DNA of 31,298 nucleotides, from positions 1-31,298 of IMG/VR virus record IMGVR_UViG_3300006926_002033; one strand, given 5' to 3'. Within the stretch, counting starts at the first letter, position 1; the number at the start of each line of letters is the position of its first letter. The notes beneath the pieces are model-generated. The model ran no database searches, had not been told where the DNA came from, and saw only the letters and a list, made by a program, of their open reading frames with translations. This DNA is from a virus. Below are positions 1 to 31,298 of the stretch, piece by piece. The translations under genes and the position numbers were made by a program.

Positions 1-8
1 ATATTAAA

Positions 9-2528: not shown

Positions 2529-2543
2529 CTTTAGGAAAGCTTC

Positions 2544-6593: not shown

Positions 6594-6609
6594 ATAAAAT
6601 AGGTGATCA

Positions 6610-8104: not shown

Positions 8105-8108
8105 TAAT

Positions 8109-9681: not shown

Positions 9682-10064
9682 AGACCGTCGCTCGATTCTT
9701 ACCAAGAAAGATCAACTTGTATATGAAACATGTTGACAAGGGCTGGGGCTGGGAGCGATGGATATGCAACGGCCCAGAGTATTGTGGAAAGCTTTTATTT
9801 TTTGAAGCTGACAAAAGATGCTCTTGGCACTATCATAAGCTAAAAGATGAGGTCTTTTATTTACAATCTGGCTTAGTGATCGTGAATTATTCAGAAGATG
9901 ATGATCTAGAAAATGCATCACAACAAATATTGAACCCAGGTGAAAATTTCCATGTCTATAGAGGTCTAAGACACCAGATGATAGCCCTTCAGGATTCAGA
10001 GTTGTTTGAATTTTCAACTCAGCATTTTGATGAGGATAGTCATAGAATAGTTAAGGGTGATTAG
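9675..10064 (+). CDS. Cupin-domain protein, sugar-metabolism type
   Basis: Single-cupin beta-barrel protein of 129 residues. Cupin motif 1 is visible as H52-Y-H54-x4-E59 in WHYHKLKDEVFYLQSG, and motif 2 as PGENFH with H93, followed by GLRHQM with H100. The upstream GWGWERWI resembles the KxWGxE beginning of sugar-isomerase or epimerase cupins such as the phosphomannose-isomerase type. This suggests a metal-bound sugar isomerase/epimerase, but a non-catalytic sugar-binding role cannot be excluded. The ATG lies inside the end of the SDR gene (7-base overlap). An internal Met17 could also serve as start, just before the conserved domain, but has no clear ribosome site. The tight packing ties it to the SDR and HAD genes. 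Confidence 0.8.
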   Translation: MVETVARFLPRKINLYMKHVDKGWGWERWICNGPEYCGKLLFFEADKRCSWHYHKLKDEVFYLQSGLVIVNYSEDDDLENASQQILNPGENFHVYRGLRHQMIALQDSELFEFSTQHFDEDSHRIVKGD

Positions 10065-10068
10065 TTTT

Positions 10069-10389
10069 ATGAAAAAAATATACTGTTTTGACATTGATGG
10101 TACAATTTGTACAATCACAGACGGTACGTATGAAGATGCTACACCCCATAAGGGAAGAATTGCAATGATCAATAGGCTTTACAATGAAGGACACATAATA
10201 AAGTATTTTACTGCAAGAGGGTCTACGACAGGGATAGATTGGTCTAAAGTTACAGAAAGCCAGCTGTCAGACTGGGGTGCTAAGCATCATGAGCTTCACT
10301 TCGGTAAACCACATTACGACATGTATATTGGTGATAAAGCGCTAAGTGATAAAGTATTTTTTGGAACGACAATATTTGAGGAATTTTAA
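10069..10389 (+). CDS. Small HAD-like phosphatase, capsule-biosynthesis type
   Basis: Haloacid-dehalogenase-fold protein, probably a phosphatase removing phosphate from a sugar intermediate. Motif I is D8-I-D10-G-T, motif II the T48 of YFTARG, motif III K80 in FGKPHYD, and motif IV YIGDKA with D89; many relatives have an extra Asp at the glycine of motif IV. The whole pattern, including TESQLSDWGAKHHEL before motif III, matches short HAD proteins common in polysaccharide loci. I chose ATG 10069, giving 106 residues, because AAGGG (10053-10057) lies 11 bases upstream; a GTG at 10057 in the same frame would sit on that site. The TAA overlaps the next ATG by one base. Confidence 0.85.
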   Translation: MKKIYCFDIDGTICTITDGTYEDATPHKGRIAMINRLYNEGHIIKYFTARGSTTGIDWSKVTESQLSDWGAKHHELHFGKPHYDMYIGDKALSDKVFFGTTIFEEF

Positions 10390-11243
10390 TGAGCATTCCA
10401 ACAATAGGAATAGTCGGCCAGGGCTTTGTAGGCTCAGCAATACGAGTAGGCCTTGAGAATTTTTATGAAATTCTAACGTATGATTTAGACGAGACAAAGT
10501 GTAACTCAACACATGAAGATGTGTGCTTGAAAAGTGATATAGTTTTTATTTGTCTTCCTACGCCTATGCGCACATCAGGTGAATGTGACACCCGGATACT
10601 TGAACGTGCAATTAATAAAATAGAGAGTGTATGTTTTAAGTCGTATGAAACAAATAATCCAATACTTGTTATAAAATCAACAATTCCTCCAGGCACAACT
10701 GAAAGAATAAATAAAAATTGTAAGTTATCTGTTTGTTTCAGCCCAGAATTTTTAACAGAAGCAAATTCTTTTGATGACTTTAAAAATCAGACGAGAATTA
10801 TTATAGGTGGGCCCCGTCCAGAAACAGGAAAAGTAAAGCAGATGTTTAGACGTGCATTTCCTGAGATTCCGATAATTAAGACAGGATCAAATACTGCAGA
10901 GACTGTTAAGTATTTTATTAATTGTTTCTTGGCTACAAAAGTTATATTTGCAAATGAAATGTATGATATATGCTCTGCTGCAGGAATTGACTTTGATAAA
11001 GTTACAGAGTACGCATTATATGACAAGAGAATTGGGAGTAGCCACTTGATGGTACCAGGCCCAGATGGTGATAGGGGATTTGGTGGCCACTGTTTTCCAA
11101 AGGACATGGAAGCCTTGATCTACTTTGCCAAGCAGATGTCTATAGATCCAAAACTTTTAAAAAATGTATTGGATAAAAATGATTCATTGAGAAAAAATAG
11201 AGACTGGGAAGTAATGAAAGGCCGGGCAGTAAGTGACGACTAG
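10389..11243 (+). CDS. UDP-glucose/GDP-mannose dehydrogenase-family protein, short form
   Basis: NAD-dependent four-electron oxidation of a nucleotide sugar to a uronic acid is the family reaction. The N-terminal Rossmann fold shows G10-Q-G12-F-V-G15. Catalytic residues appear present: SPEFLTE with E119, K173 and N177 in ETVKYFINCF, and the nucleophile C234 with D238 in GFGGHCFPKD. Typical enzymes are ~390-450 residues; this one stops at 284, shortly after the central helix, so the C-terminal nucleotide-sugar-binding domain is missing. The stop is followed by an intact overlapping gene, so I see a compact protein, not an obvious frameshift. GAGGA upstream supports the ATG, which overlaps the HAD stop. 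A changed substrate or assembly with another subunit is possible. Confidence 0.88.
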   Translation: MSIPTIGIVGQGFVGSAIRVGLENFYEILTYDLDETKCNSTHEDVCLKSDIVFICLPTPMRTSGECDTRILERAINKIESVCFKSYETNNPILVIKSTIPPGTTERINKNCKLSVCFSPEFLTEANSFDDFKNQTRIIIGGPRPETGKVKQMFRRAFPEIPIIKTGSNTAETVKYFINCFLATKVIFANEMYDICSAAGIDFDKVTEYALYDKRIGSSHLMVPGPDGDRGFGGHCFPKDMEALIYFAKQMSIDPKLLKNVLDKNDSLRKNRDWEVMKGRAVSDD

Positions 11244-12135
11244 TTTAGTGACAGGAGGCTGTGGTTTTATAGGAGGGCATATTGTTGATAGGTTAGTTTC
11301 CCTCGGCCACCACGTCACTGTTATAGATGATTTGTCTGCACCAGAAAATGAAGATTTTTACTTCAATAAAGATAAATCAAGTGTAGCGTACGTGATCAAA
11401 GATGTGTCAGAAGATGATTGTAATGAGTATTTTTCTGGTGTTGACTATGTTTTTCATCTGGCGGCAAGAAGTCGAATCCAACCGACCATAGACGATCCAG
11501 AGCAGTGTTTTAGGGTGAACGTTCTAGGCACACAGAGGGTCCTGGAGTGGTCCAGGATGTCCGGTGTGAAGAAACTTGTATATTCAGGTACGTCATCATT
11601 GTATGGTAAACAGAATCCAATTCCGTTCACTCCAAACATGCCCGCGCACTGTCTTAATCCGTACTCGATGTCAAAGTGGATGGGTGAGCAAGTTTGTGAG
11701 CTATACTTTCAACTGTACGGATTGCACAGTATTGTCTTGCGATATTTTAATGTTTACGGCCCTAGGGAACCGCTAAAAGGCCAGTACGCACCGGTGATCG
11801 GACTTTTTAAACGCCAAGAGGCAAATGAAGAGCCGATAACACTTGTTGGAAACGGTCTTCAAAGAAGAGACTTTACGTACATTGATGATGTTGTCGATGC
11901 AAATATGTGTGCAATAGGCGCAGATGGAATTAAACACGGTGTTTATAATGTGGGAACAGGAAGAAATTATCCGATAATTGAGATTGCACACATGATAAAA
12001 AGAAAAAGTTCAATTGTTCACATCCCATCCAGACCAGCCGAGGTCAGAGAGACGCTAGCAGATATTGAATCTACGATAAGAGATCTTGGATGGGCACCGA
12101 AGTTTAAGTTGAGGGACACAGTAAATTCTTATTAA
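11233..12135 (+). CDS. NAD-dependent nucleotide-sugar epimerase/dehydratase (extended SDR)
   Basis: Extended SDR of 300 residues acting on a nucleotide sugar, for example UDP-GlcNAc or UDP-uronate C4 epimerisation. It shows TGGCGFIGG (7-15), the acidic IDDLS near 31-35, HLAARS (75-80), catalytic serine in YSGTSSLYG (117-125), Y144-x3-K148 (YSMSK), RYFNVYGPRE and the substrate-binding RRDFTYIDDVVDA. The start is GTG, overlapping the end of the UDP-sugar dehydrogenase by 11 bases; this pairing of dehydrogenase and epimerase is common in uronic-acid sugar pathways. The protein ends early after LRDTVNSY, slightly shorter than most relatives. It closes the sugar island; a short A/T-rich gap with a weak hairpin follows. 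Confidence 0.9.
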   Translation: MTTSLVTGGCGFIGGHIVDRLVSLGHHVTVIDDLSAPENEDFYFNKDKSSVAYVIKDVSEDDCNEYFSGVDYVFHLAARSRIQPTIDDPEQCFRVNVLGTQRVLEWSRMSGVKKLVYSGTSSLYGKQNPIPFTPNMPAHCLNPYSMSKWMGEQVCELYFQLYGLHSIVLRYFNVYGPREPLKGQYAPVIGLFKRQEANEEPITLVGNGLQRRDFTYIDDVVDANMCAIGADGIKHGVYNVGTGRNYPIIEIAHMIKRKSSIVHIPSRPAEVRETLADIESTIRDLGWAPKFKLRDTVNSY

Positions 12136-12138
12136 AAA

Positions 12139-12158
12139 AATAACATTTTCTCGTTATT
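12139..12158. repeat. Short A/T-rich inverted repeat after the sugar island
   Basis: A 6-bp stem (AATAAC paired with GTTATT) encloses an 8-base loop in the 41-base gap between the epimerase stop and the nuclease start. It is preceded by an A-run and followed by TATTAATT. It is too weak to call a terminator with confidence. It is worth recording because a longer hairpin lies on the other side of the nuclease gene. The GAGGA at 12166-12170 downstream is the nuclease ribosome site. Confidence 0.3.
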
Positions 12159-12176
12159 ATTAATTGAGGAAATTAC

Positions 12177-13022
12177 ATGGAAGATAATAAAGTTACTGCA
12201 ACATTTCCAACAGGAAAGTCACACATCTCTTTCTCTGAATTAAAGATATGGAAGGAGTGCACGTATAGACACAAGCTTGCTTATATTGACAAGCTTGATG
12301 TATTTGAGCCTTCACCGTACTTAGACTTTGGGACTGCAGTTCATGAAGGCTGCGAGTCTCTCTTGACGACAAAGTCTGTTGACAAGGAGAAGATACTTTC
12401 AGAAGTTAGAAGTGCTTGGGATAAAAATGGGTTTGGTAAGCCAGAGTGGTATGAAAAAATGCCAGGTTGGTATAAGCATGAGCCCGTTGATGTCTGGTGC
12501 ACTTGGGCATTAAACATGTGGGATGAAGTACCACAGTTCTTAGATAAAACATTCCCTGGCTGGGAGTGCTTTAAAGCTGAGGAAGCATTATACGAACCAA
12601 TTGAGGAAAAGGATCTGACATTCAAGGGGTTTGTTGACGCCATTATAAAGGTACCTAAGAAACGAGGCACAGGTTTCAACTATTGGATAATTGATTGGAA
12701 GACTTCACAATCATACGGATGGAGAAGACAAAAGAAACAGGATATCTTGATGACAGCGCAATTGATTCTCTACAAGTACTTTTGGTCAAAAAAGCATGAC
12801 ATATCACTAAGTGACATACGCTGTGGCTTCATTCTTTTAAAGCGCGGAGGAAAACCAGGAAAGATATGCGAGCTGGTTGATGTATCAGTCGGACCTAAGT
12901 CTCTAGCAAAAGGGATAAAGATAATGAACGACATGATCTCTGCAGTGCGAAGAGGAATCGCGCTAAAGAATAGAAATAGCTGCACATATTGTCCTTTTTA
13001 TGGCACAGAACACTGCACGTAG
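12177..13022 (+). CDS. PD-(D/E)XK nuclease, Cas4/AddB-like with putative Fe-S cluster
   Basis: Predicted RecB-family DNA exonuclease for phage replication, recombination or host DNA degradation. The nuclease core is readable: the start-of-core SHISFSELKIWKECTYRH, GTAVHE with H56, D154 in FKGFVDAI, D173-W-K175 in WIIDWKTS, and Q195-x3-Y199. Four cysteines are placed as in Cas4/AddB iron-sulfur nucleases: C28, then C269, C272 and C280 in the C-terminal CTYCPFYGTEHC. The 281-residue length fits stand-alone phage exonucleases of this type. GAGGA lies 6 bases before the ATG. It is flanked by intergenic gaps on both sides, each with an A/T-only hairpin, so it may be a separate transcription unit. 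No CRISPR repeats or other cas genes are nearby. Confidence 0.88.
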   Translation: MEDNKVTATFPTGKSHISFSELKIWKECTYRHKLAYIDKLDVFEPSPYLDFGTAVHEGCESLLTTKSVDKEKILSEVRSAWDKNGFGKPEWYEKMPGWYKHEPVDVWCTWALNMWDEVPQFLDKTFPGWECFKAEEALYEPIEEKDLTFKGFVDAIIKVPKKRGTGFNYWIIDWKTSQSYGWRRQKKQDILMTAQLILYKYFWSKKHDISLSDIRCGFILLKRGGKPGKICELVDVSVGPKSLAKGIKIMNDMISAVRRGIALKNRNSCTYCPFYGTEHCT

Positions 13023-13026
13023 TTTA

Positions 13027-13056
13027 AAAATTATTATCATGAGTTATAATAATTTT
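13027..13056. repeat. Perfect 11-bp A/T-only hairpin with embedded TATAAT
   Basis: The left arm AAAATTATTAT (13027-13037) and right arm ATAATAATTTT (13046-13056) are exact reverse complements around an 8-base loop CATGAGTT. It sits in the 58-base gap after the nuclease gene. The right arm ends in TTTT, so it could be a weak terminator. It also contains TATAAT at 13045-13050, a match to a bacterial -10 box, though no good -35 (only TTTAAA-like sequence) is seen. The ribosome site AAGGGG for the glycosyltransferase lies just downstream (13066-13070). Terminator, promoter and operator are all possible. Confidence 0.5.
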
Positions 13057-13080
13057 AATTCAGTAAGGGGTTATCAATAG

Positions 13081-14340
13081 ATGACTGAAAATGGGAAGCT
13101 TAAAGTTTTGGTTTTGTCTGATCACGCGTTATCAACAAGCGGCGTTGGAACGCAAACTAGACACTTAATTAATGGTCTTTTGGAAAAAAACAAGTGGTCA
13201 TTCAGACAGTTTGGCGCTGCACTAAAGCATAATGACTACAAGACAATTGTTGTTAATGAAGACTTTATTATTAAACCAATTGATGGGTTTGGATCACCTG
13301 AAGTTATACGTGTGGCTCTCGCGACAGAAAAACCAGACATTATGTTCATTTTCACAGATCCAAGATTTTTTACGTGGCTTTTTGATATAGAGGATGAGAT
13401 ACATCAAATATGTCCAATTGTCTGGTGGCATGTTTGGGACAACTATCCATATCCCGAATTCAATAATTCCTATTATGATGCTACGGATAAGATTAACTGT
13501 CATTCACACATGACATACAAGATGATCAAAGAGAACGGTAGGCATGCTGACAAGACATCTTTTATACCTCATTCGATTCCAAATGAATTGTTTCATAAAC
13601 TTTCAGACGAGGATATTGAAAAACACAAGAAGAATCTATTTGGTGACAGGAATGATAAGTTTACAGGAATATGGGTTAATAGAAATGCAAAAAGAAAGAG
13701 ACCAAATGATGTTCTTGAGTCGTGGAAATTATTTCTAGATAAGTTAGAAGAGGACGAAGGCCACCGCTCTGCTAAGCTGATAATGCACACAGATCCGTTG
13801 GACGGTGAAGGCCCGAACTTATTCGTAGTGTGTGAGATGCTGGGTATTGTTGATAACGTTTTCTTTTCAAGAGACAGACTTGACTTTGAAAAAATGAATG
13901 TTCTGTATAATGTTTCTGACTTTTGCATAAATATTTCATATGCAGAGGGCTTCGGATTGTCAACACTTGAGTCGATGATGACCGGAACACCGATAATCGC
14001 TGCTAAAACAGGTGGTTTGACCAGACAGGTAACAGATCACAGGGATCAAACAGAAAATGGTGTTGCATTGGATATTGATACTACCGTGATGGTGGGTAGT
14101 CAAACAGTCCCTTACATCTATGAGGATTATGTCTCTAATGAGAACACTGCGAAAGCTATAAGATCGCTGTACGACGAAATTCAAGACGAAACCAGAAAAA
14201 GAATTTTGAGTGAAAAAGTTTTAAGTTACGCGACGACAGAGTTTAATTATCAGAAAACTATTGATTTGTGGCACGAAAGTATGTTGGATGCTATCGAAAA
14301 ATTTAAAGATAGAGAGAGCTGGTCTAAGAAGACGTTTTAA
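13081..14340 (+). CDS. GT-B glycosyltransferase, family 4-like
   Basis: Retaining glycosyltransferase that would transfer a sugar from a nucleotide donor to an unknown acceptor. The N-terminal domain has the glycine loop STSGVGTQTRHL near residues 19-30. The C-terminal domain carries the family signature YAEGFGLSTLESM with E289 and E297 forming the EX7E motif, followed by GTPIIAAKTGG. The 419-residue length is normal for GT4 enzymes. No membrane segment or signal peptide is apparent, so it should act in the cytoplasm. It follows the nuclease gene after a 58-base gap with a hairpin and its own ribosome site, and is followed at once by a second GT-B gene, so the two likely act in sequence. Confidence 0.87.
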   Translation: MTENGKLKVLVLSDHALSTSGVGTQTRHLINGLLEKNKWSFRQFGAALKHNDYKTIVVNEDFIIKPIDGFGSPEVIRVALATEKPDIMFIFTDPRFFTWLFDIEDEIHQICPIVWWHVWDNYPYPEFNNSYYDATDKINCHSHMTYKMIKENGRHADKTSFIPHSIPNELFHKLSDEDIEKHKKNLFGDRNDKFTGIWVNRNAKRKRPNDVLESWKLFLDKLEEDEGHRSAKLIMHTDPLDGEGPNLFVVCEMLGIVDNVFFSRDRLDFEKMNVLYNVSDFCINISYAEGFGLSTLESMMTGTPIIAAKTGGLTRQVTDHRDQTENGVALDIDTTVMVGSQTVPYIYEDYVSNENTAKAIRSLYDEIQDETRKRILSEKVLSYATTEFNYQKTIDLWHESMLDAIEKFKDRESWSKKTF

Positions 14341-14348
14341 GGTTGAAT

Positions 14349-15524
14349 ATGAAAGTTTTATTAAGAGCACCGCTACTAACTAACAGCGGATATGGTGTAC
14401 ACTCTCGACAAATATTCGAGTGGCTAGTCGGTAGAAATGATGTTGACTTGCACACAGAGTGTTTGATGTGGGGACACTGTTCGTGGCTGATCAATACAGA
14501 CTTACACGGAGGTTTAATAGGGCAGATAATGCATCACTCCCGTCCAATAGAGAAAGGTCAAAATTTCGATGTGTCTTTTCAGGTGCAGCTTCCAAACGAG
14601 TGGGATCCAAATTTAGCTAAAAAAAATATTGGTGTATCTGCATTTGTTGAAACAGATCGTTGTAATCCTGAGTGGATCAATCACTGTAATAAAATGAGCA
14701 GAGTCATAGTTCCGTCGACATTTACAAAAAACGTCGCTGTAAGGTCTGGGAAGCTGTCAACACAAATTGATGTTGTTCCTGAGTGGTATAATCACAGTAT
14801 TATTAAAAAGTCAGCATGTGATAAAATAGCTAAATCTGATAAAAGATATAAGTTCAACACGAGATTTAATATCATGATAATGGGTCTGCTAACAAGCATG
14901 AATACAAATGATGATAGAAAAAATTTAGTTAACACAATTAAATGGATAATTGAGACGTTTAGCGGCAATAAAGATGTTGGAATTGTCCTTAAGACAGGCT
15001 TAGGCCGGGATACTGTACAGGACAAATTGATATGCGAGGCCAACATAAGAAAGATAGTTGACGAGTTCAGAAAATCAAGCTTATTTCCCAAGATTCACTT
15101 TTTGCATGGACATATGCAACCCAATGAACTAGGTGCACTTTATACTTCATCAGGTATAAAAGTTTTTGCATCTGCAACTAGAGGAGAGGGATACGGTCTG
15201 CCAATAATTGATGCGGCAGCAGCAGGAATTCCAATTATAGCAACAGGCTGGTCTGGACATTTTGAGTTTTTAGATCGTGACTTAGTGAGTTGTGTAGACT
15301 ACAAGCTTAATGAGATAGCAAAATCAAGAGTTGACAATTCAATATTTTTAGATGGGTTCCGGTGGGCAGAACCTGATAGAGATAGTTTTTGCAATGCACT
15401 AACTGACATTTATGAAAACTATAAAATTGCAAAGGGCAAAGCAAATAAATTGAAGAAAAAAATAGTACCAGGCTTCCATAAAGAGAACATTAAGAAGTTA
15501 TATGATAAAATTCTGGATGAGTAG
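14349..15524 (+). CDS. GT-B glycosyltransferase (second of a pair)
   Basis: Predicted cytoplasmic glycosyltransferase of 391 residues. The N-terminus has LLTNSGYGVHSRQIFEWL, a donor/acceptor glycine loop, and the C-terminal domain has TRGEGYGLPIIDAAAAG with E280 and D288 (EX7D variant) followed by GIPIIATGWSGHFEF. I chose ATG 14349 because AAGG at 14339-14342 is well placed; a TTG six bases upstream in the same frame is a less likely start. It begins 8 bases after the first glycosyltransferase. Possible targets are the virion surface, host glycans or modified phage DNA; T4-like phages do use glycosyltransferases on DNA, but nothing here proves that. The two proteins share fold but not close sequence. 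Confidence 0.86.
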   Translation: MKVLLRAPLLTNSGYGVHSRQIFEWLVGRNDVDLHTECLMWGHCSWLINTDLHGGLIGQIMHHSRPIEKGQNFDVSFQVQLPNEWDPNLAKKNIGVSAFVETDRCNPEWINHCNKMSRVIVPSTFTKNVAVRSGKLSTQIDVVPEWYNHSIIKKSACDKIAKSDKRYKFNTRFNIMIMGLLTSMNTNDDRKNLVNTIKWIIETFSGNKDVGIVLKTGLGRDTVQDKLICEANIRKIVDEFRKSSLFPKIHFLHGHMQPNELGALYTSSGIKVFASATRGEGYGLPIIDAAAAGIPIIATGWSGHFEFLDRDLVSCVDYKLNEIAKSRVDNSIFLDGFRWAEPDRDSFCNALTDIYENYKIAKGKANKLKKKIVPGFHKENIKKLYDKILDE

Positions 15525-18726: not shown

Positions 18727-19728
18727 ATGGGAGCATTAAAAGATGTAGGTGCAATTGGTGATGAGGCTGAGGACTCTTACGATCAATTCAGGGCCGCTAC
18801 ACAGCAGACGCTGATAGACGGATACGCTTACGTAATTCCGGGACTTGAAGCTTCATCAGTGCCTATACCTCTGCATGAGGATGAAGGCGGCCTCCCAGAG
18901 CCAGTCAGGCTTGCAGCTGCTGGCATACTGACCACACACTACGATGACTTCGATGCTATGTGGGGAGACATGTACTTCAAAACAATGGAAGCTATTGATG
19001 ATAACTTCCCGTCGGCAGGCATGCCACCTGTTACTCCGCTTATCGATCCAACAGTGCCACTTATTCCTATACTCACATTGGATCTAGGTATCCCGGACCT
19101 CCCTGAGTGGCTTCTTAAGCACCTCCCTCCGCTAATGATTAATCCAACCTGGCCACCTGATTTTTTGGCTGCAGTGACTAAGGCATTGGCTTGTGAGCCA
19201 AAAGATCTTGCAAATATGTTAGTTGATATGGACAAAGACGGCGTCGTAGAGGCAGATAGAGTTATTGAGGCATTTGAAGCAATCTGTCCGATTACGATAC
19301 CCACGATTACTATTCCTCCCATTCCGCCCCCGCCATTCCCGTGGGCATTCAACTTTGCTCCTGTTCCATCGATAGGCTTCCTCATTCCAAACTGGGAGTG
19401 GCCGAATCTTAATTTTTCGTTTTCATTGCTCTTAGAAATTGTTATAAAAGCAGGAATTAAATTTGGAGCAGCGATACCAGAGCTTATCTTAAAGATAGTC
19501 AACGGGATCGAAGAATTTCTTATTGCTTGTGTAATGTTTTTGATAGAAACTATTATCGCTATGATCATGGAGGTCATGGCATTTTTATTGAAGATGGTCA
19601 CATATGTAGCAGGTCTTATGACATTTCTTGCAAAAATAATTCCCGGTATGATAGTCGCAATTCTCGGTTGGGCCTTAGGAACCGGCATGATAGCTTACAT
19701 AGCCGCTGGCTACTTTGATTTAATCTAA
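18727..19728 (+). CDS. Proline-rich phage protein with very hydrophobic C-terminus
   Basis: 333 residues, family not recognised. The N-terminal ~90 residues are acidic and helical. Residues 100-210 are proline-rich, with PPIPPPPFPW near 197-206. An EF-hand-like loop DMDKDGVVEADR (167-178) has D, D, D, G at the expected places but R instead of E at the last ligand position. From about 233 to 330 the protein is almost continuous hydrophobic helix-like sequence (LLLEIVIKAG, FLIACVMFLIETIIAMIM, IIPGMIVAILGWALG), enough for several membrane spans. It lies between the gp5-like spike and gp25, with GGAG at 18717-18720 before the ATG. A baseplate hub, tail-tip or membrane-entering protein are plausible; none is proven. 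Confidence 0.75.
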   Translation: MGALKDVGAIGDEAEDSYDQFRAATQQTLIDGYAYVIPGLEASSVPIPLHEDEGGLPEPVRLAAAGILTTHYDDFDAMWGDMYFKTMEAIDDNFPSAGMPPVTPLIDPTVPLIPILTLDLGIPDLPEWLLKHLPPLMINPTWPPDFLAAVTKALACEPKDLANMLVDMDKDGVVEADRVIEAFEAICPITIPTITIPPIPPPPFPWAFNFAPVPSIGFLIPNWEWPNLNFSFSLLLEIVIKAGIKFGAAIPELILKIVNGIEEFLIACVMFLIETIIAMIMEVMAFLLKMVTYVAGLMTFLAKIIPGMIVAILGWALGTGMIAYIAAGYFDLI

Positions 19729-19786: not shown

Positions 19787-20308
19787 ATGAGTGATGCAAC
19801 AAATGCAACAGTCTCGAAGTTTAGCTTTAAGAGCGTGGGCAACGTCGTTACTGCTAGAAAGTTTGATAATACTTCTACTATAGCATCGTTAGAAAGAAGT
19901 ATCGGTATTATTACACCTATCAGGCAGAGTGGTAAGGGTGAAATATTTGACATGCACACAGACGTCAGAGAGCAGTTAAAGGATAATTTAAAGAATCTCA
20001 TCATGACTAACCAGGGTGAACGACTATGTCGTCATGCTTTCGGTGCAAACTTAAAAAGTGTGCTTTACGATTACACAAAAGAGAAGGAGTATATAAATTT
20101 AGTCTCAGGATTGATAAGGCAGGCAACTGAGCAATCTATGCCTGCGCTTGATATCACAGAGGTTGAGGTGCTTGTTTTGAATAATCTTGAGAAGAATAAT
20201 GCAAACTTAGCAGGCTTGGCAAAATTAAAGTTAAGAGTAATTTTTTCTGTGCCGAGTATTCGTATAGAAAATTTAGGCGTTGAAGTTGAAATGTTTATCG
20301 GAGGATAA
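19787..20308 (+). CDS. gp25: Baseplate wedge protein gp25-like (GPW/gp25 family)
   Basis: Small baseplate wedge component that joins the wedge to the sheath and hub in contractile tails. The GPW/gp25 core is at about 55-100: MHTDVREQLKDNLKNLIMTN followed by QGERLCRHAFGANL, matching the family pattern of a helix ending in NPGERL. The 173-residue length is longer than T4 gp25 (132) because of an N-terminal extension of about 45 residues. The gene follows a 58-base gap; GGAG at 19772-19775 is 11 bases before the ATG, a longish spacing, and no better start exists (an ATG at 19780 runs into a stop). Position immediately before gp6 is as in T4. Confidence 0.9.
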   Translation: MSDATNATVSKFSFKSVGNVVTARKFDNTSTIASLERSIGIITPIRQSGKGEIFDMHTDVREQLKDNLKNLIMTNQGERLCRHAFGANLKSVLYDYTKEKEYINLVSGLIRQATEQSMPALDITEVEVLVLNNLEKNNANLAGLAKLKLRVIFSVPSIRIENLGVEVEMFIGG

Positions 20309-20314
20309 TTTAAA

Positions 20315-22159
20315 TTGGCAAGAAATATTAAAAAAGAAGTAGCAAAGCACAAGGATATATCGTATACAAATCGTGACTTTGACAGTATTAGGAATGAGCT
20401 AAAAAGATACACAGCTACACACTTTAATCAAAATATTGTTGATATAAGTGATGCATCGTTAGCGGGCCTTCTAATTGACCTTGCTGCGTATGTGGGTGAT
20501 GTGATGTCGTACTACATAGACCATCAGTTTAATGAGACATCAATTGAGACAGCAATTGAGACTGAGAATATTGAGAGGTTCATTAGAGAGGCCGGCGTTG
20601 AAGTAGCTGGTCCGTCACCTGCACTTTGTGAGGTGACATTCAGAATTAGAGTTCCTGCAACGCTTAATAATGGTGAGTACTCTCCGAATAGTGTGTATCT
20701 ACCTGTAATTAAATCAGGGTCAGTTGTCTCGTCAACAACAGGTGTTGACTTTGAGTTACTTGATGATGTTGACTTTTCAGAAACTGACGCAGATGATGAG
20801 CTAGTTGCAACATTCAGGATTGGCCAGCTATCCGGATCAACACCTCTTAACTTTATTTTAGAAGCGACAGGTGTGTGCACAAGTGCAAAGTCAAAGACAG
20901 ATTCATTTCCAATAGGCGATACTGTTGAACCGTTTAGAAAAATTACATTGACAAAGACCGATGTCACAGAGCTAGTGTCTGTCTACGATAACGATGGCGA
21001 CAATTACTATGAGGTGAGTTCTCTGACCCAGGATACTGTTTTCAAACGTCATGCGAATAGTAGACAAGATGCAGAGTACGCTCCCGAGCGCCTGCAGATT
21101 CTTCATGCGCCGAAGCGATTTGTCAAATTTAGAACATCAACAACAGGAAAGACAACGATAAGATTCGGCTCCGGTGATGAGACAAAGTTCGATGAAGACA
21201 TAATCCCAGATCCTTCAGATCACGCAGTCACGCTTTACGGTGATAGGGAGACATCAACAAAGATCACGATTGATCCTAACAGTTTCCTGGAGACACAGAC
21301 ATTAGGCATCTCTCCTAGAAATACAACAATAACAGTGAACTACAGATATGGTGGAGGTCTAAAGCATAATGTGGGAGCTGGTTTACTAAATTCTGTAAAG
21401 ACGTTGATCACGTCTTTTGGAACAGCAACACCAACATCCGTCGCATCATCAATCAGAGCGTCGACAACTGTGATCAATCAACAGCCAGCAGCAGGCGGAG
21501 AGGATGAGCCAACGCTAGAAGAGTTAAGAAATATCGCGCTGTTCAATAGAAACTCACAGAACAGGGTCGTCACTAGAGAGGATCTCATAGCAAGAGTGTA
21601 CGGAATGCCAACTAACTTTGGAAGAGTATTCAGAGTGTCTGTAAGAGATAATCCAAATAATCCACAAGCTGCACAACTTCACATAATTTCTAGAAATTCT
21701 AATGGAAAATTAATACTGTCGCCTGACACTCTAAAGGAAAACTTAGGCTTCTATTTGAGCCAGTTTAGAATAGTATCTGATGCGATAGACGTTCTCGATG
21801 CAGCTATAATTAATATAGGAATAAACTATTCAGTCACAGTTGATGCAGATAGGAATTCGAATACAGTTTTGAATATCATTAATGCTAAATTAGGAAAATA
21901 CTTTAATATAAAAAATTGGCAGATTGATCAGCCTGTTATCACCGGCGAGCTTGAAAATATCGTGCTAAATACTGCCGGCGTAGTTTCAATTGTGGAGTTT
22001 TCAATAGTTGGTAAGTCAGGAGTAATTGATGACTTGGTTTATACTGATGTCTCATATGATCCAAGAAGATACATGGATAGAGGGTATCTATTTCCACCAC
22101 GAGGTGGAATGATAGAGCTCAAGTATCCTAATGACGACATTGTCGGGAGTGTTACATAA
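20315..22159 (+). CDS. gp6: Baseplate wedge protein gp6-like (baseplate J family)
   Basis: Major structural wedge protein of the contractile-tail baseplate. The N-terminus has the gp6 signature DISYTNRDFDSIRNELKRY (14-32) and SDASLAGLLIDLAAYVGDVM (45-64) followed by YYIDHQFNE. The C-terminal half contains the baseplate-J core: NRVVTREDLIARVYGMPTNF, then a domain with LNIINAKLGKYFNIKNWQID and PVITGELENIV. At 614 residues it is close to T4 gp6 (660). It uses a TTG start at 20315, supported by GGAGG at 20300-20304 and by the conserved N-terminus, with no in-frame ATG until about 45 codons further on. The stop overlaps the next ATG (TAATG). Confidence 0.92.
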   Translation: MARNIKKEVAKHKDISYTNRDFDSIRNELKRYTATHFNQNIVDISDASLAGLLIDLAAYVGDVMSYYIDHQFNETSIETAIETENIERFIREAGVEVAGPSPALCEVTFRIRVPATLNNGEYSPNSVYLPVIKSGSVVSSTTGVDFELLDDVDFSETDADDELVATFRIGQLSGSTPLNFILEATGVCTSAKSKTDSFPIGDTVEPFRKITLTKTDVTELVSVYDNDGDNYYEVSSLTQDTVFKRHANSRQDAEYAPERLQILHAPKRFVKFRTSTTGKTTIRFGSGDETKFDEDIIPDPSDHAVTLYGDRETSTKITIDPNSFLETQTLGISPRNTTITVNYRYGGGLKHNVGAGLLNSVKTLITSFGTATPTSVASSIRASTTVINQQPAAGGEDEPTLEELRNIALFNRNSQNRVVTREDLIARVYGMPTNFGRVFRVSVRDNPNNPQAAQLHIISRNSNGKLILSPDTLKENLGFYLSQFRIVSDAIDVLDAAIINIGINYSVTVDADRNSNTVLNIINAKLGKYFNIKNWQIDQPVITGELENIVLNTAGVVSIVEFSIVGKSGVIDDLVYTDVSYDPRRYMDRGYLFPPRGGMIELKYPNDDIVGSVT

Positions 22160-23693: not shown

Positions 23694-26600
23694 ATGTCTA
23701 AGAAACTTTTTGATAGAAATGTACCTGGTAAGCTTTTTAAGCCAACTTTCCGAAGAGAAGCCAGGCAATCAGCTGCTCATCTCAATAAGCCTGAGGACAC
23801 AAAATACACATACGCTGCGTTTAAAGACACAAACTTATTTAGCACATCTTCATACAGGTACGGAGACAAGGATTATCTAGTCTCAACACAGCAAGCAAAT
23901 GTTGACTTTTCAAAATTTGAGAACCACACGTTTTTTCACTCTGCAGTTGCTAATGTCAATGAGGCATTTGATAGAATAGTCAACTTTTATCCTTTTGATG
24001 GAACAAAAAAAGATATTGAAGAGTTTGAAGACACCTTAACGGGTTTTGAAAAGTATGTTTTTAATTCTTTTCCAAAGAACGTAGGCTATCTTGTTTTTTC
24101 AGGATCTAAAGCTGCAGGATCAGGAAATTATATAGAGGTTGTTGATAGATCAGGCGCTGCAATCAACTCGATATCAGATGACAGGTCAGGAAAGGTCGTG
24201 ATGGATCCTGCTTCGAACCCTTTCACAATAGAATTCTTCTATAATGCTCCTGAACTAGCAAATGATAATCAGGTCATTGCCCAAAAGAGGAGCTCGCTGT
24301 CAAATTCAATAACAATTGCGCTGTCTCAGTCAAATAGCACGTCAACGGGAAGCATAATCTTTGGTGTGACATCTGGATCGAATTACTCTTATGTAACAGG
24401 AACACTTTATAAGGGTTCGTTTAATCACGTCGCTGCGATTTATGACATAGAGGGGGATCAAAAGACAAAGCTGATAATAGATGATGTAGTCTACTCTTCA
24501 AGCATGTCAACAACATTTTCAACACTGCACTACTCAGCAAATAGCTTGTACATAGGAACAGGCTCACAGGTTCGTTTAAATAATCTCATATTCGACCCTC
24601 AAGAGACACTGTCAGGTGCAATGGACACTTTTAGATTCTATCATGTAGTGAAGGATCGTGCGACAATCAAAGATGAAAAGACAAAAGATGTGTACGCATC
24701 AAGTGACCTAAAACTTCAGCTAAGATTCAATGAGCCGTCTGGAAGTTACACAGGTAATGACATAGTTCTTGACAGCTCAGGAAATTCTTTACACGGCATA
24801 ATAACAAATTTTGATAGTTCATTTAATAGGACAACCGGCTCAAATAATCCAACAGGAAATGAGTGTGTTGAGAGGAGTATAGTGCTCTTTCCTGACTTCC
24901 CTCAGATAACAGCACTGAATACTGCGCTTTTGACAACTGGGAGCGAGTACGACACGTATAATCCGAATCTAATTACAAAGTTGATACCTCCACATTATTT
25001 TGAAGAATCGAATTATTTAGATAATTTTGATGATGACCTGGGAAAACTAGGCGAGGCATTTTCAACATTCACAGACTTTAATGTAGGTAAGAAGTCGTCA
25101 GATCTTCCAGGCGCTTCTCTCTTGGTCAAGTTTTTACTGATATGGGCAAAAGCGTTTGATGAGTTAAAAATAACAATTGATACTATAAGTAATTTTAATC
25201 ATGTTAAGTATGAAGACTATGAGTCAGTTCCAGACCCCCTGCTTAGAAAGAAAGCTGAGTCAATAAATATAAGACTTCCCTCACTTTTTAGAAACTCAGA
25301 GCAGTCACAGCTGATAGAGGGAATTAACTTATCAGAAGACTTCACAAATGCAACTAAGTCGCTTAATGACCTTCAAAATCTGATATGGAGAAGAATCCTA
25401 TCAGATACAGTAAACATGCGGAACACAAAAGGGACAATTGGTTCACTAAAAAGTGTGTTCAGGTCTGCAGGAATGGAGCCTGACAACATACTGGCTTTTA
25501 GAGAGTATGGAGGATCCAGATTAAAAAGCCTTAACGGTTCTAGGGAAAGAAAAGTTGACGTATTGAAATTTCTAAACTTTTCAGGATCAATGGAAAAGAC
25601 TGTAGGGTCAGTTGATAATGAAGGCTATCCAGATAATTTTCCAAAGATAAAGTCAGGTTACTTGTCTAGCTCGAGGGTTGAAACAGGCGTTCCGTTACCT
25701 GGTCCGTCAACTCTGGCAATAGGCACCATCGAAGTCGAGGACGTTTCTACTATTACTGACGGAATGCTACTGAACATAACAGACTCGATCGGAAAAATAA
25801 TAACATTTGAATTTGATGATGATGATTCAACAACAGCAGGAAATGTTGGAATTCCAATCCAAGCATCAGAATCTTTGATGGCAGAAAAGATACTTCAGAA
25901 AGTTACAGGAAGCTTTAGTGGTTCTATGACAGGCTCTCTAATCTCAGCGGGTGCAGCAGACGGAACATGTGTGTTAACACAGAGCTTAAGGGCCCGGACA
26001 AATCTTGGTAATACTACAATTGACGGGTCAGTATCTTCAGCAGACGTAACAATCGTTAACTTTAACGGTGGCGCCGGGTTCCTCTTTCAAAATAGTGATG
26101 AGCACGGAACACACGGAATTTCAACTGTGAGATCAGATGGCCTTTTAACTTCAGGTTCTTTTACGTATGAGGGGTTGTATGACTGGGAGCATGGTTACAT
26201 AGGAGCACCAGAGAGCCTGATCAGGCTGGTTGTGACAGGAACAACTGCTCCCAGTAACACAGAGTCAGTGATAGCTAATCTTGTTGGCACATCAACTCGC
26301 CTAGACTTGTTTATAAGTGACAGCCCTACAAGCACTGATGTGAAACATTTATTCCTGACAGGCGCAAATGTCTTTGACAAGGATATATGGGGAGTCTCAT
26401 TCGGTAGGCGCGCCCCTCATGATCTTGGTGCGACTACTAGACATGAGTACTTTCTAAGAGCAACAAAACAAGAGAGCGGCCGACTGTTGGAGTCTTACCA
26501 CACTGCATCACACTATGCAGATCAGTCAGACTCTGTGTTCAATAATGCAACAGACACATATAATTCGTCAGGATCAATCTTAGTGATAGGTGAGCAAACT

Positions 26601-27557
26601 CTCCAGGGAGGCTCAAGCGGCAAGTTCTTGAATAACTCTACAGGCGCAGACACATACACACTAGCACACTCTTCTAGTTTTACCGGTCTGATTTCAAATT
26701 TACGATTCTGGTCAAGGTACACATCAGACACAGAGTGGAAGGAAAGAGCAAAGAATTACGTCAGCGTCGGACTTGATAATCCAAGCGTAAATTATAACTT
26801 CACAAGTACAACTACAGGTTCATTTGAGAGACTGAGGGTTCATACTTTTGGAAAGCAAGCAACAACATCTTCAGATGCATCAGGCGGCACAATGTTTTTT
26901 GACTTTAGTCAAAATAACAATCATCTTGTGGGTAGCAATTTTGAACCTAGCAAGACAGTTTTCAAAGCGCTTAGAGCAGATTATGAGATACTTTCAGAGA
27001 AATTTGACCTCAATTACGCAAAGACTAAAGTTCGAGTGAGAAGCTTTCAAGACCCGACATTAATTGATGATTCTAAGTATTGCTCAGTCGCACCTGCGTA
27101 TGAAGTCGCACCTAGTGAGGAGGTAGTAGATGATAATAGACTGTCAATTGACATGTCAGTCATGAAAGGTCTAAATGAAAATATCTTGACTATGTTCTCG
27201 GATTTCGGAGCTATTGATAATGCGTTAGGAAGACCGAACCTTATATTTGGTGCATCATATCCAGAATTGTCCCACTACAGAACAGTGTACTTCAATAATG
27301 TGCTAGAACGCATGGACTTATCTAAGTACAGGACACTTTTTAAGTGGATTGATAACGCATTCACTGACATGATGTACGATCTGGTTCCAAGGACAACAAA
27401 CTTTATGGGAATTAACTTTATCTATGAGTCACACGTTCTTGAACGACATAGATTACAATATACTTTTGATGAGATATATTTAAAAGCGCTACCTCGTGAT
27501 CCGTCAAGGGGAAACTTGCTTCTAAGTCAGTTCGTGGGTGTCATCAGTAAGTTCTAA
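23694..27557 (+). CDS. Giant LamG-containing tail protein with tail-protein-I-like domain
   Basis: 1287 residues. Domain order as I read it: N-terminal 1-125 unassigned; LamG/concanavalin-like module about 130-345 (FTIEFFYNAPE, FNHVAAIYDIEGDQKTKLII, MDTFRFYHVV); a tail protein I/gp7-like wedge domain about 470-625, with SLNDLQNLIWRRILSDTVNM then RNTKGTIGSLKSVFRSAGM and AFREYGG; a small beta module about 690-790 with FEFDDDDST and FNGGAG; a second, weaker LamG-like module about 820-1012 (SNLRFWSRY); and a C-terminal wedge-like region to 1287. The mix of baseplate and lectin-like domains suggests a wedge protein that displays sugar-binding lobes at the host-contact face. It begins 11 bases after its neighbour. 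Confidence 0.82.
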   Translation: MSKKLFDRNVPGKLFKPTFRREARQSAAHLNKPEDTKYTYAAFKDTNLFSTSSYRYGDKDYLVSTQQANVDFSKFENHTFFHSAVANVNEAFDRIVNFYPFDGTKKDIEEFEDTLTGFEKYVFNSFPKNVGYLVFSGSKAAGSGNYIEVVDRSGAAINSISDDRSGKVVMDPASNPFTIEFFYNAPELANDNQVIAQKRSSLSNSITIALSQSNSTSTGSIIFGVTSGSNYSYVTGTLYKGSFNHVAAIYDIEGDQKTKLIIDDVVYSSSMSTTFSTLHYSANSLYIGTGSQVRLNNLIFDPQETLSGAMDTFRFYHVVKDRATIKDEKTKDVYASSDLKLQLRFNEPSGSYTGNDIVLDSSGNSLHGIITNFDSSFNRTTGSNNPTGNECVERSIVLFPDFPQITALNTALLTTGSEYDTYNPNLITKLIPPHYFEESNYLDNFDDDLGKLGEAFSTFTDFNVGKKSSDLPGASLLVKFLLIWAKAFDELKITIDTISNFNHVKYEDYESVPDPLLRKKAESINIRLPSLFRNSEQSQLIEGINLSEDFTNATKSLNDLQNLIWRRILSDTVNMRNTKGTIGSLKSVFRSAGMEPDNILAFREYGGSRLKSLNGSRERKVDVLKFLNFSGSMEKTVGSVDNEGYPDNFPKIKSGYLSSSRVETGVPLPGPSTLAIGTIEVEDVSTITDGMLLNITDSIGKIITFEFDDDDSTTAGNVGIPIQASESLMAEKILQKVTGSFSGSMTGSLISAGAADGTCVLTQSLRARTNLGNTTIDGSVSSADVTIVNFNGGAGFLFQNSDEHGTHGISTVRSDGLLTSGSFTYEGLYDWEHGYIGAPESLIRLVVTGTTAPSNTESVIANLVGTSTRLDLFISDSPTSTDVKHLFLTGANVFDKDIWGVSFGRRAPHDLGATTRHEYFLRATKQESGRLLESYHTASHYADQSDSVFNNATDTYNSSGSILVIGEQTLQGGSSGKFLNNSTGADTYTLAHSSSFTGLISNLRFWSRYTSDTEWKERAKNYVSVGLDNPSVNYNFTSTTTGSFERLRVHTFGKQATTSSDASGGTMFFDFSQNNNHLVGSNFEPSKTVFKALRADYEILSEKFDLNYAKTKVRVRSFQDPTLIDDSKYCSVAPAYEVAPSEEVVDDNRLSIDMSVMKGLNENILTMFSDFGAIDNALGRPNLIFGASYPELSHYRTVYFNNVLERMDLSKYRTLFKWIDNAFTDMMYDLVPRTTNFMGINFIYESHVLERHRLQYTFDEIYLKALPRDPSRGNLLLSQFVGVISKF

Positions 27558-27568
27558 GGAAATAAAAT

Positions 27569-29593
27569 ATGTCAACTAAAACTTCCACAGCAAGTAATAT
27601 ACTGGACTTAGACGCATTAAATGAACGATTAGCGTTTGTTGATAAGTCTGCAGACGCCTCACTGATGCCTGTGACAGCATCTTTGACGTATGTTTCGACA
27701 CCCGCGACGCAACGAATCGGCCTAGAGATAGAAAGAGTAACTGTCGTGGAAAAATCTTACGAGGAAACGGAAGCTGGTGGATCCAGGCTAGGGACAGTTA
27801 CTGTATTCGGTGAGAATAGTGACACATCAGTTATTGATATGTACCGGCAGGGAAAGAATGTTATTACGATGAACCACCTTGCTAAGGGAATACTTCCGTA
27901 CATCTCCATCAACACGCAGAAGATCATGGAAATTGATGGAACAGTTCGCCACCAGATGCAGAATGAAGAATACGGCCAGGGCAGTCTTCATAAGGTCTTT
28001 GACGATGTAAAGAATAAAATTCGACCTTTCGAGGATTATCCAGGGAAGTTAGATCCGGTTGCATTTGTCGAGTCAGGAAACTACATCATGCAGTACATGA
28101 TCATCAATGATCTGACTAGAGACTTAGACCAGTACATAGACCCAGACACGATGGACGGTGTCATTGAGGTATTTGAGATACGTCGCAGAAATGCAAATAC
28201 AAACTCTGCAGATATACAGATAAATGGAATTAGATGTGATCTCTCTACAGGCGACTGGAACTTTGATCAGAAAGGAAGCTCTGTTATTGACACAAAGTAT
28301 GAGAAGGTGCAAGGTGTGTATGACTGGTACGAGGACTCACAGGAGAGCATATTCCCAGAGACACTTTTTGAAAGAAGGTTAGGCATGCCCTTAACAGGTG
28401 CTTTTGTAGTTGCTGGAAGAACGCTGTCTCTTGATGGTTTCATAGCAGACGGGTATTATAATATTGCACCTTTCAACGACACAGAAAACTACATTGGAAG
28501 TAGCTATGAGCACGTAAGATACGCACTTTCTACAGTATCGACCAGCTCTATCGATCCAGGACCTGTGTATTCTTTTAATAAGACATTCACTACAAAATTA
28601 GGTTCTTATGAATATGATATGGCAGACGACGCTGTTGCAGTTTGGACTTTTACAGGCTCGCTCGCAGATGACGGTTCTGATACATGGTTGAATAGTGCTA
28701 AAAACGGTAACACAATAACACTAGGAGTATTAGAAGATGTTGCTTCTAGAACACCACACCAAACGGCAACAACGCCGTCAGCAGTAATTAGCCCAGTATA
28801 TACACACAACTTCAAGTATGGTGGATCAACTTCTGCGCTCTGGGCAGAACACCACTCATCACTAAGTTTCGGCGATGGATCAACAGACAGCCCATTTTCA
28901 ATAACAGCCTGGATAAGATTAGATTCCACTGCTATGTCGTCTAATAATACAATTCTCCATAAGGGCGGAAGTGCTTCAAATTATCAGTATCGATTTACAT
29001 GTGACTCCGGTAGACTAAAACTCTTTTTAGGCGATGCTTCTGCATCAACTGCTAGGATTATCCAGCAGAGCACAAACACTTTATCACACTCAACATGGTA
29101 TCATGTTGCTGCGACATATAACGGATCATCTCTCGAAGGCGGCATGAAAATATATATCGATGGTGCCGTTGAAGTTAGTAACTCCACAAACTCTGGTGGC
29201 ACTTATGTAGCGATGGAATCTTTTACGGGCGCAACAGATGGTTTAGCTATAGGTGGAACTGTAAGCACGCTATATTCAATTGCAAACATTTATGATGGTA
29301 ACATGGCAGAAATTCAGATGTGGGAGAAAGAACTATCTGCAGCAGAAGTATTAACGCTTGCAAGCATTAAAGACGGAATACAGTATGATCCTGTAGAGGA
29401 TCCAGATGCTGTAAAAGCGCTAAATAATATTTTAACTAGCTCGTATTTCGATATCAGCGACATAGGTTCACGATTTACTTCAGCTAATACAGGGTTTATA
29501 TTTCCAAAGAATATAGTGTCTGCTAGTAACGTAAGTGGAATAAGTAATCACTTAGGTGTAGACTCAATAGCCTTCGGAGGCTTTCTCAAGTAA
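27569..29593 (+). CDS. Baseplate/tail protein with LamG domain inserted near the C-terminus
   Basis: 674 residues. Residues 1-350 form an acidic beta-rich backbone without a recognised family. A LamG domain occupies about 354-605: DDAVAVWTFTGSL at the start, SLSFGDGSTDSPFSITAWIR, STWYHVAATYNGSS, MKIYIDGAVE and MAEIQMWEKELSAAEV. After it, a 65-residue tail (DPDAVKALNNILTSSYFDIS to AFGGFLK) looks like a continuation of the backbone, so the LamG seems to be an insertion. AAGGAAA just upstream supports the ATG. The stop overlaps the ATG of the next LamG gene. Likely a host-receptor or glycan-binding component; the LamG module is closely similar to the next gene's. Confidence 0.82.
   Translation: MSTKTSTASNILDLDALNERLAFVDKSADASLMPVTASLTYVSTPATQRIGLEIERVTVVEKSYEETEAGGSRLGTVTVFGENSDTSVIDMYRQGKNVITMNHLAKGILPYISINTQKIMEIDGTVRHQMQNEEYGQGSLHKVFDDVKNKIRPFEDYPGKLDPVAFVESGNYIMQYMIINDLTRDLDQYIDPDTMDGVIEVFEIRRRNANTNSADIQINGIRCDLSTGDWNFDQKGSSVIDTKYEKVQGVYDWYEDSQESIFPETLFERRLGMPLTGAFVVAGRTLSLDGFIADGYYNIAPFNDTENYIGSSYEHVRYALSTVSTSSIDPGPVYSFNKTFTTKLGSYEYDMADDAVAVWTFTGSLADDGSDTWLNSAKNGNTITLGVLEDVASRTPHQTATTPSAVISPVYTHNFKYGGSTSALWAEHHSSLSFGDGSTDSPFSITAWIRLDSTAMSSNNTILHKGGSASNYQYRFTCDSGRLKLFLGDASASTARIIQQSTNTLSHSTWYHVAATYNGSSLEGGMKIYIDGAVEVSNSTNSGGTYVAMESFTGATDGLAIGGTVSTLYSIANIYDGNMAEIQMWEKELSAAEVLTLASIKDGIQYDPVEDPDAVKALNNILTSSYFDISDIGSRFTSANTGFIFPKNIVSASNVSGISNHLGVDSIAFGGFLK
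28628..29383 (+). other. LamG domain of the 27569 gene
   Basis: Marks the lectin-like module (residues about 354-605). Compare with 29710-30387: both contain LSFG(D/N)G(S/T)TD-PFS-AWI, a (W)YHVA-TY-GS strand, a (M)K(I/L)Y(I/V)-G strand, and AE(I/V)-MW near the end. Boundaries are estimated by eye. Confidence 0.7.
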
Positions 29594-31298
29594 TGCCAAA
29601 ATTACAATTATCAAATGTGCAACAAGCCGAGTACGATCTAACTAAGAATTTTTCTAATATTGGTAGCGCGCTAGCTCCAAAACAATATAGGTCATACTCT
29701 TCTTCACAAAACTTAGTTTTACATGTAAAGTTCAATAACAGCGCCGCGTCAGATGCATCAAATCATGATCATACAATCACATTCCCGATAAGTGGTGTAA
29801 CATGGACAGATTCCTCGGGCTTTGATTATAATTTTGTACAGATACTACTTGATGGAGCAACAAATTATTGTAGTGTCGCAGATTCAGATGACTTAAGTTT
29901 TGGGAATGGAACGACTGATGTACCTTTTTCTGCCTGCGCGTGGATCATGCCCACTGCCTCCAAATCCAAAAGTTACATAATATCTAAACGCGCTGCAAAT
30001 ACTACAGGTTTAGAATATGTTTTCTATCTTGATGCCCTTACGCTGGTTGTTATCCTCTATGATCAATCAGCATATCCAGCAAGTATTTTTACGTGGACCA
30101 GCGCGGCAGTTGTGTTGAATGAGTATTCGCATGTTGCTTTTACATATGATGGATCAGGTAATTCTAGCGGAATAAAATTATATGTCAATGGGGAAGAAAA
30201 AGCTCCTGACAGTCATGGAATGGCCAACGGTTCCTATGAGTCAATGGTAGCATCATCAGCTAATGTGCATATCGGAACAACTTGGGAGCATGAGGCAGAC
30301 ACAGTTTTCCCAGGATATATCGCAGAGGTAGCAATGTGGAGGGATGTCGCACTTCGAAGTGATGAGGTCTACGCTGTTTTTGCTGGATCGATAAACGGTG
30401 TAATTGACAGGTGGCAGTCAGGTATTATATCTGAACCGCCGAGATCACGCATAAGAAGATACGACTCAATGACAGGGTCATATCCTACAGTGTTAAGATC
30501 AGGTGACCCGTATAGATCAGGCCAGTACACGAACGCATTTGATGATAGGAATACGATACACTTCGGCAAGATGATTAAAAGTGACTTTATCTTTGACGTA
30601 AAGAGTAAGTATAAAGACTTCTATTTTTATAATGTTGTATCGTCAGATAGTGACTGGACATACTCTACGGGTATGGAAATCAGATTTGAGACAAGAAAGA
30701 AAAAGAGAAATAAAAGGAGGAAAGGCAGGCGCAGAACGGGCAGGCCTATCAGAGACGGCGCTCTTGTCTTCGCAGGCCCCGGGGATAATAACCTGAGCGG
30801 TGGCGGCGGATCGGACCCAGATGAAAGATACATTTCGACAACAGAGAAGGTCAGAAATCCAGAAATTGAGTTCACACTCATGCAAGGACCGTATAATAAA
30901 ACAAATAATATGTACCTCAAAGGTCTTAGGCTGTGGAATGGCACAGAAGATGAGTCATTAAAGTTACAGATAAGCACTGATAATGAGGCGTGGGTTGATG
31001 TGAAGACATTCAACGTGATCAACCCATTCGAGCCTTCCACACTCACGTCTAGGCTGATATCAGGGCTCGTAGACTATAACATTACGCTTCCTGCTGATTC
31101 ATCTACAGAGTCAGAAGACGGTGATGCTCAAAAGGTACGGATAAGGGTCCACCTCGGTATGCATGATTTTCCTGCGATGGGTGATGGGAATGATGAGTTT
31201 TATGTGAGACTCGCGCAGACAACGATGTCTGATGCTGCAAAAGCGGTATGGGCTATAAGTGACATCACAATTAAGTCAGCGAGGGGTACAGTGAACTA
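29593..31298 (+). CDS. LamG-containing tail protein, 3' end beyond the window
   Basis: Starts at an ATG overlapping the previous stop (TAATG) and stays open to the window edge, about 568 residues so far. A LamG module lies at about 40-265: LSFGNGTTDVPFSACAWI, YSHVAFTYDGSG, IKLYVNG and GYIAEVAMW. Residues 266-360 form a separate domain (SGQYTNAFDDRNTIHFGKMI). Then comes an unusual lysine/arginine tract (about 368-384) and a glycine-rich linker (LSGGGGSDPDE, 401-411). The part after 412 is beta-rich (LRLWNGTEDESLKLQIS; WVDVKTFNVI). Motif order and spacing in the LamG match the preceding gene. I infer a surface-exposed baseplate or fibre protein. Confidence 0.85.
   Translation, partial: MPKLQLSNVQQAEYDLTKNFSNIGSALAPKQYRSYSSSQNLVLHVKFNNSAASDASNHDHTITFPISGVTWTDSSGFDYNFVQILLDGATNYCSVADSDDLSFGNGTTDVPFSACAWIMPTASKSKSYIISKRAANTTGLEYVFYLDALTLVVILYDQSAYPASIFTWTSAAVVLNEYSHVAFTYDGSGNSSGIKLYVNGEEKAPDSHGMANGSYESMVASSANVHIGTTWEHEADTVFPGYIAEVAMWRDVALRSDEVYAVFAGSINGVIDRWQSGIISEPPRSRIRRYDSMTGSYPTVLRSGDPYRSGQYTNAFDDRNTIHFGKMIKSDFIFDVKSKYKDFYFYNVVSSDSDWTYSTGMEIRFETRKKKRNKRRKGRRRTGRPIRDGALVFAGPGDNNLSGGGGSDPDERYISTTEKVRNPEIEFTLMQGPYNKTNNMYLKGLRLWNGTEDESLKLQISTDNEAWVDVKTFNVINPFEPSTLTSRLISGLVDYNITLPADSSTESEDGDAQKVRIRVHLGMHDFPAMGDGNDEFYVRLAQTTMSDAAKAVWAISDITIKSARGTVN
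29710..30387 (+). other. LamG domain of the 29593 gene
   Basis: Marks the lectin-like module (residues about 40-265), a paralogue of the preceding module but located near the N-terminus of its protein instead of the C-terminus. The boundaries are estimates by eye. Confidence 0.7.

Follow-up and report, generated by a model that had tools for sequence, protein, structure and literature searches.

LamG modules and their differing turnover in three successive proteins from the baseplate region of an uncultured, probably marine myovirus

The ConA-like fold is used by many glycan-binding domains. Among marine myophages, the pelagimyophages possess a structural operon with concanavalin-type domains together with a variable glycosyltransferase island (PMC7029224), and genes for host recognition are established hotspots in marine phages (PMC3909814). 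Domain mosaicism has been documented for the receptor-binding and baseplate proteins of phages (PMC10684548). The locus analysed here resembles the pelagimyophage cluster in having glycosyltransferase and sugar-nucleotide genes ahead of the baseplate genes (PMC7029224). It encodes three successive proteins, C, A and B, each of which carries a LamG domain at a site with its own pattern of occupancy among related viruses.

Gene order and baseplate context

The window, that is the whole stretch of DNA analysed, is a 31,298-base IMG/VR virus record (IMGVR_UViG_3300006926_002033) which probably derives from an uncultured, marine myovirus lineage; a phage collection search retrieved no close isolate of this lineage and a scan of GTDB genomes no relative of protein C. 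The layout resembles part of a contractile-tailed phage, with sugar/glycosyltransferase genes followed by wedge genes and then by C, A and B (Table 1). The sugar-gene run upstream of the baseplate genes (1-15524) contains epimerase-like and dehydrogenase-like genes and glycosyltransferases and has the appearance of a host-recognition cluster. Of the wedge genes adjoining the cassette, the gp25-like one has a weak match, and the gp6/J-like one matches its PHROGs with E values around 1e-15; this clear upstream wedge gene places the C-A-B cassette in the tail baseplate region. The backbones of A, B and C match no Pfam or PHROG family, and structure prediction for the A and B backbones gave low-confidence models, too weak for naming.

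As the window ends inside B, the full-length protein of 1772 aa is visible in contig L003/L016 only, which is co-linear with the window and 99.87% identical to it over 9.7 kb. tblastn matches spanning 2774 and 2435 bases had raised the suspicion of extra inserts, which was dropped because of this co-linearity and identity. The differences between the window and L016 are unevenly distributed, 17 of 36 falling within the 140 bases 18774-18914 at the start of a 333-aa open reading frame (18727-19728), and L017 and L008 differ from the window by the same set; this stretch resembles a tract of local recombination or a variable patch.

Table 1. Positions of the baseplate-region genes, LamG domains and A-site features in the window
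Feature	Position	Strand	Basis
gp25-like baseplate wedge protein	19787..20308	+	weak: PF04965 E 7.7e-5, below cut-off; phrog_261/43 E 0.004
Baseplate wedge subunit (gp6/J-like)	20315..22159	+	phrog_6 E 2.4e-15; phrog_219 E 4.9e-15
Protein C, large structural (baseplate-region) protein with its own LamG	23694..27557	+	open reading frame, 1287 aa; Pfam LamG; orthologues in 80 loci
LamG of C (aa 152-326)	24147..24671	+	Pfam, profile match; vertical inheritance with the backbone
Protein A	27569..29593	+	open reading frame, 674 aa
Whole A insertion (~aa 325-620, LamG and linkers)	28541..29429	+	gap in alignment with L009 and 13 other relatives; boundaries good to ~10 residues
LamG core of A (aa 417-595)	28817..29353	+	Pfam 67.5 bits, profile match, confident predicted beta-sandwich
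Conserved C-terminal A tail (..GTDSIAFGG.K type), where the backbone resumes past the insertion	29429..29590	+	alignments with relatives
Protein B, cut by the window end	29593..31298	+	1772 aa in near-identical contig, L003:8025-13343
LamG core of B (aa 86-260)	29848..30372	+	Pfam, profile match; position common to many B orthologues

LamG domains and their sites among relatives

The three domains all exceed the curated cut-off (27.6 bits) of the Pfam family Laminin_G_3 (PF13385; ConA-like lectin/glucanase superfamily), with matches at aa 435-594 of A (67.5 bits), aa 87-259 of B (69.2 bits) and aa 174-325 of C (48.9 bits), the last of which was overlooked in the initial annotation. That annotation had described LamG modules in A and B that share motifs in the same order and spacing and lie near opposite ends of their proteins, a description that proves accurate: both modules are well over the cut-off, motif spacing is similar (78/15/53 in A, 77/15/49 in B), and the A module ends at about aa 595 near the C-terminus, followed by a tail of ~79 aa that ends in ~55 aa of conserved backbone, while the B module begins at about aa 86 of 1772. 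The A module, the only one folded, is predicted to form a ConA-like beta-sandwich (pLDDT mostly 70-90 over aa 440-540), and in Foldseek the model matches pentraxins and the lectin-type domains of sialidases (E ~1e-7). It also matches the lectin-like domain of clostridial neurotoxins, a likeness that concerns the common fold only and gives no indication of a toxin.

When viral contigs were scanned with single proteins, A and B retrieved nothing beyond near-copies of the virus and C a single relative at 50%, and an alignment of LamG alone was too divergent as a scan query. Relatives were gathered with an alignment profile of C, which yielded 80 related loci; 50 were scanned for LamG, absence of the domain being called relative to the profile cut-offs. 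The reference tree, built from C without its LamG, places the window virus in a 20-member clade (100% SH-aLRT). Relatives without LamG exist for either gene.

In the case of A, the other complete orthologues of the 20-member clade all lack LamG, and orthologues without the insertion measure ~230-430 aa. The A body and the C-terminal tail align on either side of the insertion, so LamG was gained in the lineage of the window virus; the A LamG is a lineage-specific insertion and the sole gain among near relatives. The distant L061, L070 and L090 carry LamGs at the A site, read here as independent; the trait needs 3 separate changes on the tree. In other relatives a LamG is located near the A N-terminus instead. 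At the exact position of the A LamG, the orthologue of L023 (L023:13505-15130) has an unrelated domain of ~190 aa. A orthologues altogether range from ~230 to 1195 aa across L016-L094, and those of L071, L073 and L086 contain long unclassified stretches, either alongside LamG or in its place.

The N-terminal LamG of B, on the other hand, is spread across the tree, and its presence or absence needs at least 12 changes. The state differs between sister pairs or near neighbours (L025/L033, L024/L092, L050/L059 and L019/L021), and B orthologues with an empty site include L092, L025, L030 and L021. Given this spread, the B module of the window is no insertion special to the window virus; its site is old and shared with most B orthologues, and the module is not a local insertion. 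The initial view that both modules are inserted consequently stands for A, whose module is absent from the backbone of close relatives, but not for B.

In 19 viruses both B and C carry LamG, and there the two domains differ in tempo. Identity between B LamGs averages 27-30% in every bin of backbone identity from 36 to 65% (r 0.39), climbs among the closest relatives only, and lies not far above the average of 23% for pairs of B with C LamGs, whereas identity between C LamGs rises from 33 to 53% over the same bins and tracks the C backbone (Mantel r 0.90). C LamGs form a single clade in the LamG tree and the domain is always present among the relatives scanned. The divergence of the B LamG, decoupled from that of its backbone, is consistent with a fixed position whose occupant is replaced time and again or changes very fast, and the flat identity could reflect saturated fast divergence instead of replacement. 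Near-identical contigs, few in number, display no excess diversity in the modules (1 difference in the A module, 0 in B).

Further length variation is visible outside the LamG domains when the window proteins are compared with those of L009, whose C is 53% identical. Protein C has an insertion of ~125 residues at aa ~668-795 that is absent from L009 and elsewhere found only in L018 and a near-copy, and B (L003:8025-13343) has a ~180-residue insertion in its C-terminal half (aa ~1210-1395), also absent from L009 and with no family match. That these two inserts and the A insert of L023 represent one second module family was considered, and was unsupported by iterative profile search or family libraries.

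Origin of the modules and competing explanations

The arrangement of A and B had initially been interpreted as a module duplicated and transplanted between neighbouring genes. The genes are adjacent, motif order is the same with similar spacing, and in an unselected set consisting of the relatives' modules and a few phage isolates A is the best match of B (71.6 bits), the A-B score ranking near the top. The two modules nevertheless share only 31.4% identity over 156 residues (BLASTP, E 1e-17), and their score of 72 bits compares with 71 (A) and 70 (B) bits against an unrelated Winogradskyella phage, so that they resemble each other no more than they resemble unrelated LamGs. In the same unselected set the A module finds its best match in A of L061 (97 bits), behind which follow B proteins of other viruses, with its own B at 72 bits. 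An IMG/VR pattern scan with FG[DN]GxTDxPF, the first motif of the initial annotation, retrieved 101 open reading frames in viral contigs, and as 101/101 encode LamG with the motif within the domain, the motif marks a LamG subtype and is no sign of copying. When these were joined to the comparison, the B module ranked 69th of 152 for A and the A module 30th of 137 for B, ranks that are harsh since selection by a motif common to A and B favours close outsiders. The best viral LamG match of A is an outsider (102 bits, 42% identity), and that of B reaches 95 bits at 40% identity; within the joined set the best identities are 44% for A and 39.5% for B. LamG trees are poorly resolved; in the smaller, careful one A and B are not paired, and forcing them to be sisters worsens the log-likelihood by 12.7 (p-AU 0.25). 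Combined with a LamG position common to most orthologues in B but not in A, these results render it highly improbable that one gene's LamG was recently copied into its neighbour in the window virus or its immediate ancestors. Most likely, the A and B modules were acquired separately from a large viral LamG pool and not copied from one another; what endures of the proposed module movement is turnover in both genes, not the exchange of a recently duplicated module between them.

A p-AU of 0.25 does not statistically reject sisterhood of A and B, and at such divergence the two may have a very old common origin. In the larger LamG tree, the A module falls among the B-site LamGs of relatives plus the A module of L061 (SH-aLRT 80, weak), and 13/32 A and B modules of the group carry an A[EDQ]xxhW signature, compared to 1/121 outsiders and 0/70 C modules, a weak signal that LamGs of the A and B sites in this virus group may have some ancestry in common. 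These observations, with the unrejected sisterhood, would suit an old exchange within the virus group in which the A LamG came from the B-site LamG of a related virus and has diverged since. Support is weak, though, the placement moves in the smaller tree, and the top score of A belongs to the outsider at 102 bits, and we regard such an exchange as unlikely.

We consider it probable that a baseplate cassette has fixed docking sites into which divergent lectin modules are taken up again and again, those of A and B having been acquired separately. C, A and B would be successive structural proteins of a cassette with fixed sites for interchangeable domains, in which the LamG of C is the old, vertically inherited part. 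At the N-terminal site of B (aa ~75-290), LamG would have come on and off over a long time, with the resident domain replaced or diverging much faster than the remaining protein, and the A site just ahead of the conserved C-terminal tail would normally be empty, its LamG having been gained in the window lineage. The modules of A and B are most likely recognition modules on the tail baseplate; we infer that recombination brings them in and that they bind surface glycans, thereby tuning adsorption. A broader version, in which C-A-B serves as a plug-in receptor platform whose docking sites recruit lectin domains and others, by recombination, out of a pool that unrelated phages also draw on, the frame and the C LamG being vertical, is put forward tentatively. 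It is rather doubtful that the B LamG instead stays in place and diverges very fast under diversifying selection, with absences as losses: close pairs do retain related B-site LamGs (L026/L047 81%, L029/L033 44%) and many B LamGs are mutual best matches, but identity is flat over the 36-65% backbone range, several B LamGs are closer to outsiders than to any relative, and at least 12 changes of state are needed. Neither does a role of the LamGs as structural or assembly parts, in baseplate packing or particle decoration and not in receptor binding, appear likely for the cassette; the constant presence of the C LamG and its conservation with the backbone are as for a structural domain, but the A and B modules come and go and change rapidly, behaviour that recognition domains should show, and the nearby sugar-gene cluster resembles described host-recognition clusters (PMC7029224).

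Relation to known systems

The giant gp7-type baseplate proteins of cyanomyoviruses (P-SSM4, S-RIM2, QB2) are likewise LamG-bearing proteins from the baseplate region of seawater phages. They differ in that one giant protein stands against three of moderate size in the window virus, in the LamG tree their LamGs are separate from the A and B modules, and no similarity was detected between the window proteins and the gp7 backbones. Module turnover at this locus, unusually clear though it is here, belongs to a form of domain mosaicism already known from phages, with which it has in common one domain type on differing backbones, enriched in tail and baseplate proteins (PMC10684548). Exchanges classed as 'contemporary' in that study require at least 50% identity, and both the A-B pair (31%) and the best outside match (44%) are under this threshold. 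While the available portion of the pelagimyophage host-recognition cluster study contains no per-site analysis of module turnover (PMC7029224), the present comparison contributes a site-by-site contrast of fixed (C), exchangeable (B) and newly gained (A) lectin modules with mapped insertion sites. These sites are a natural first place to seek determinants of the cells infected, and the vertical LamG of C next to the fast-changing one of B provides a clean internal control for module turnover.
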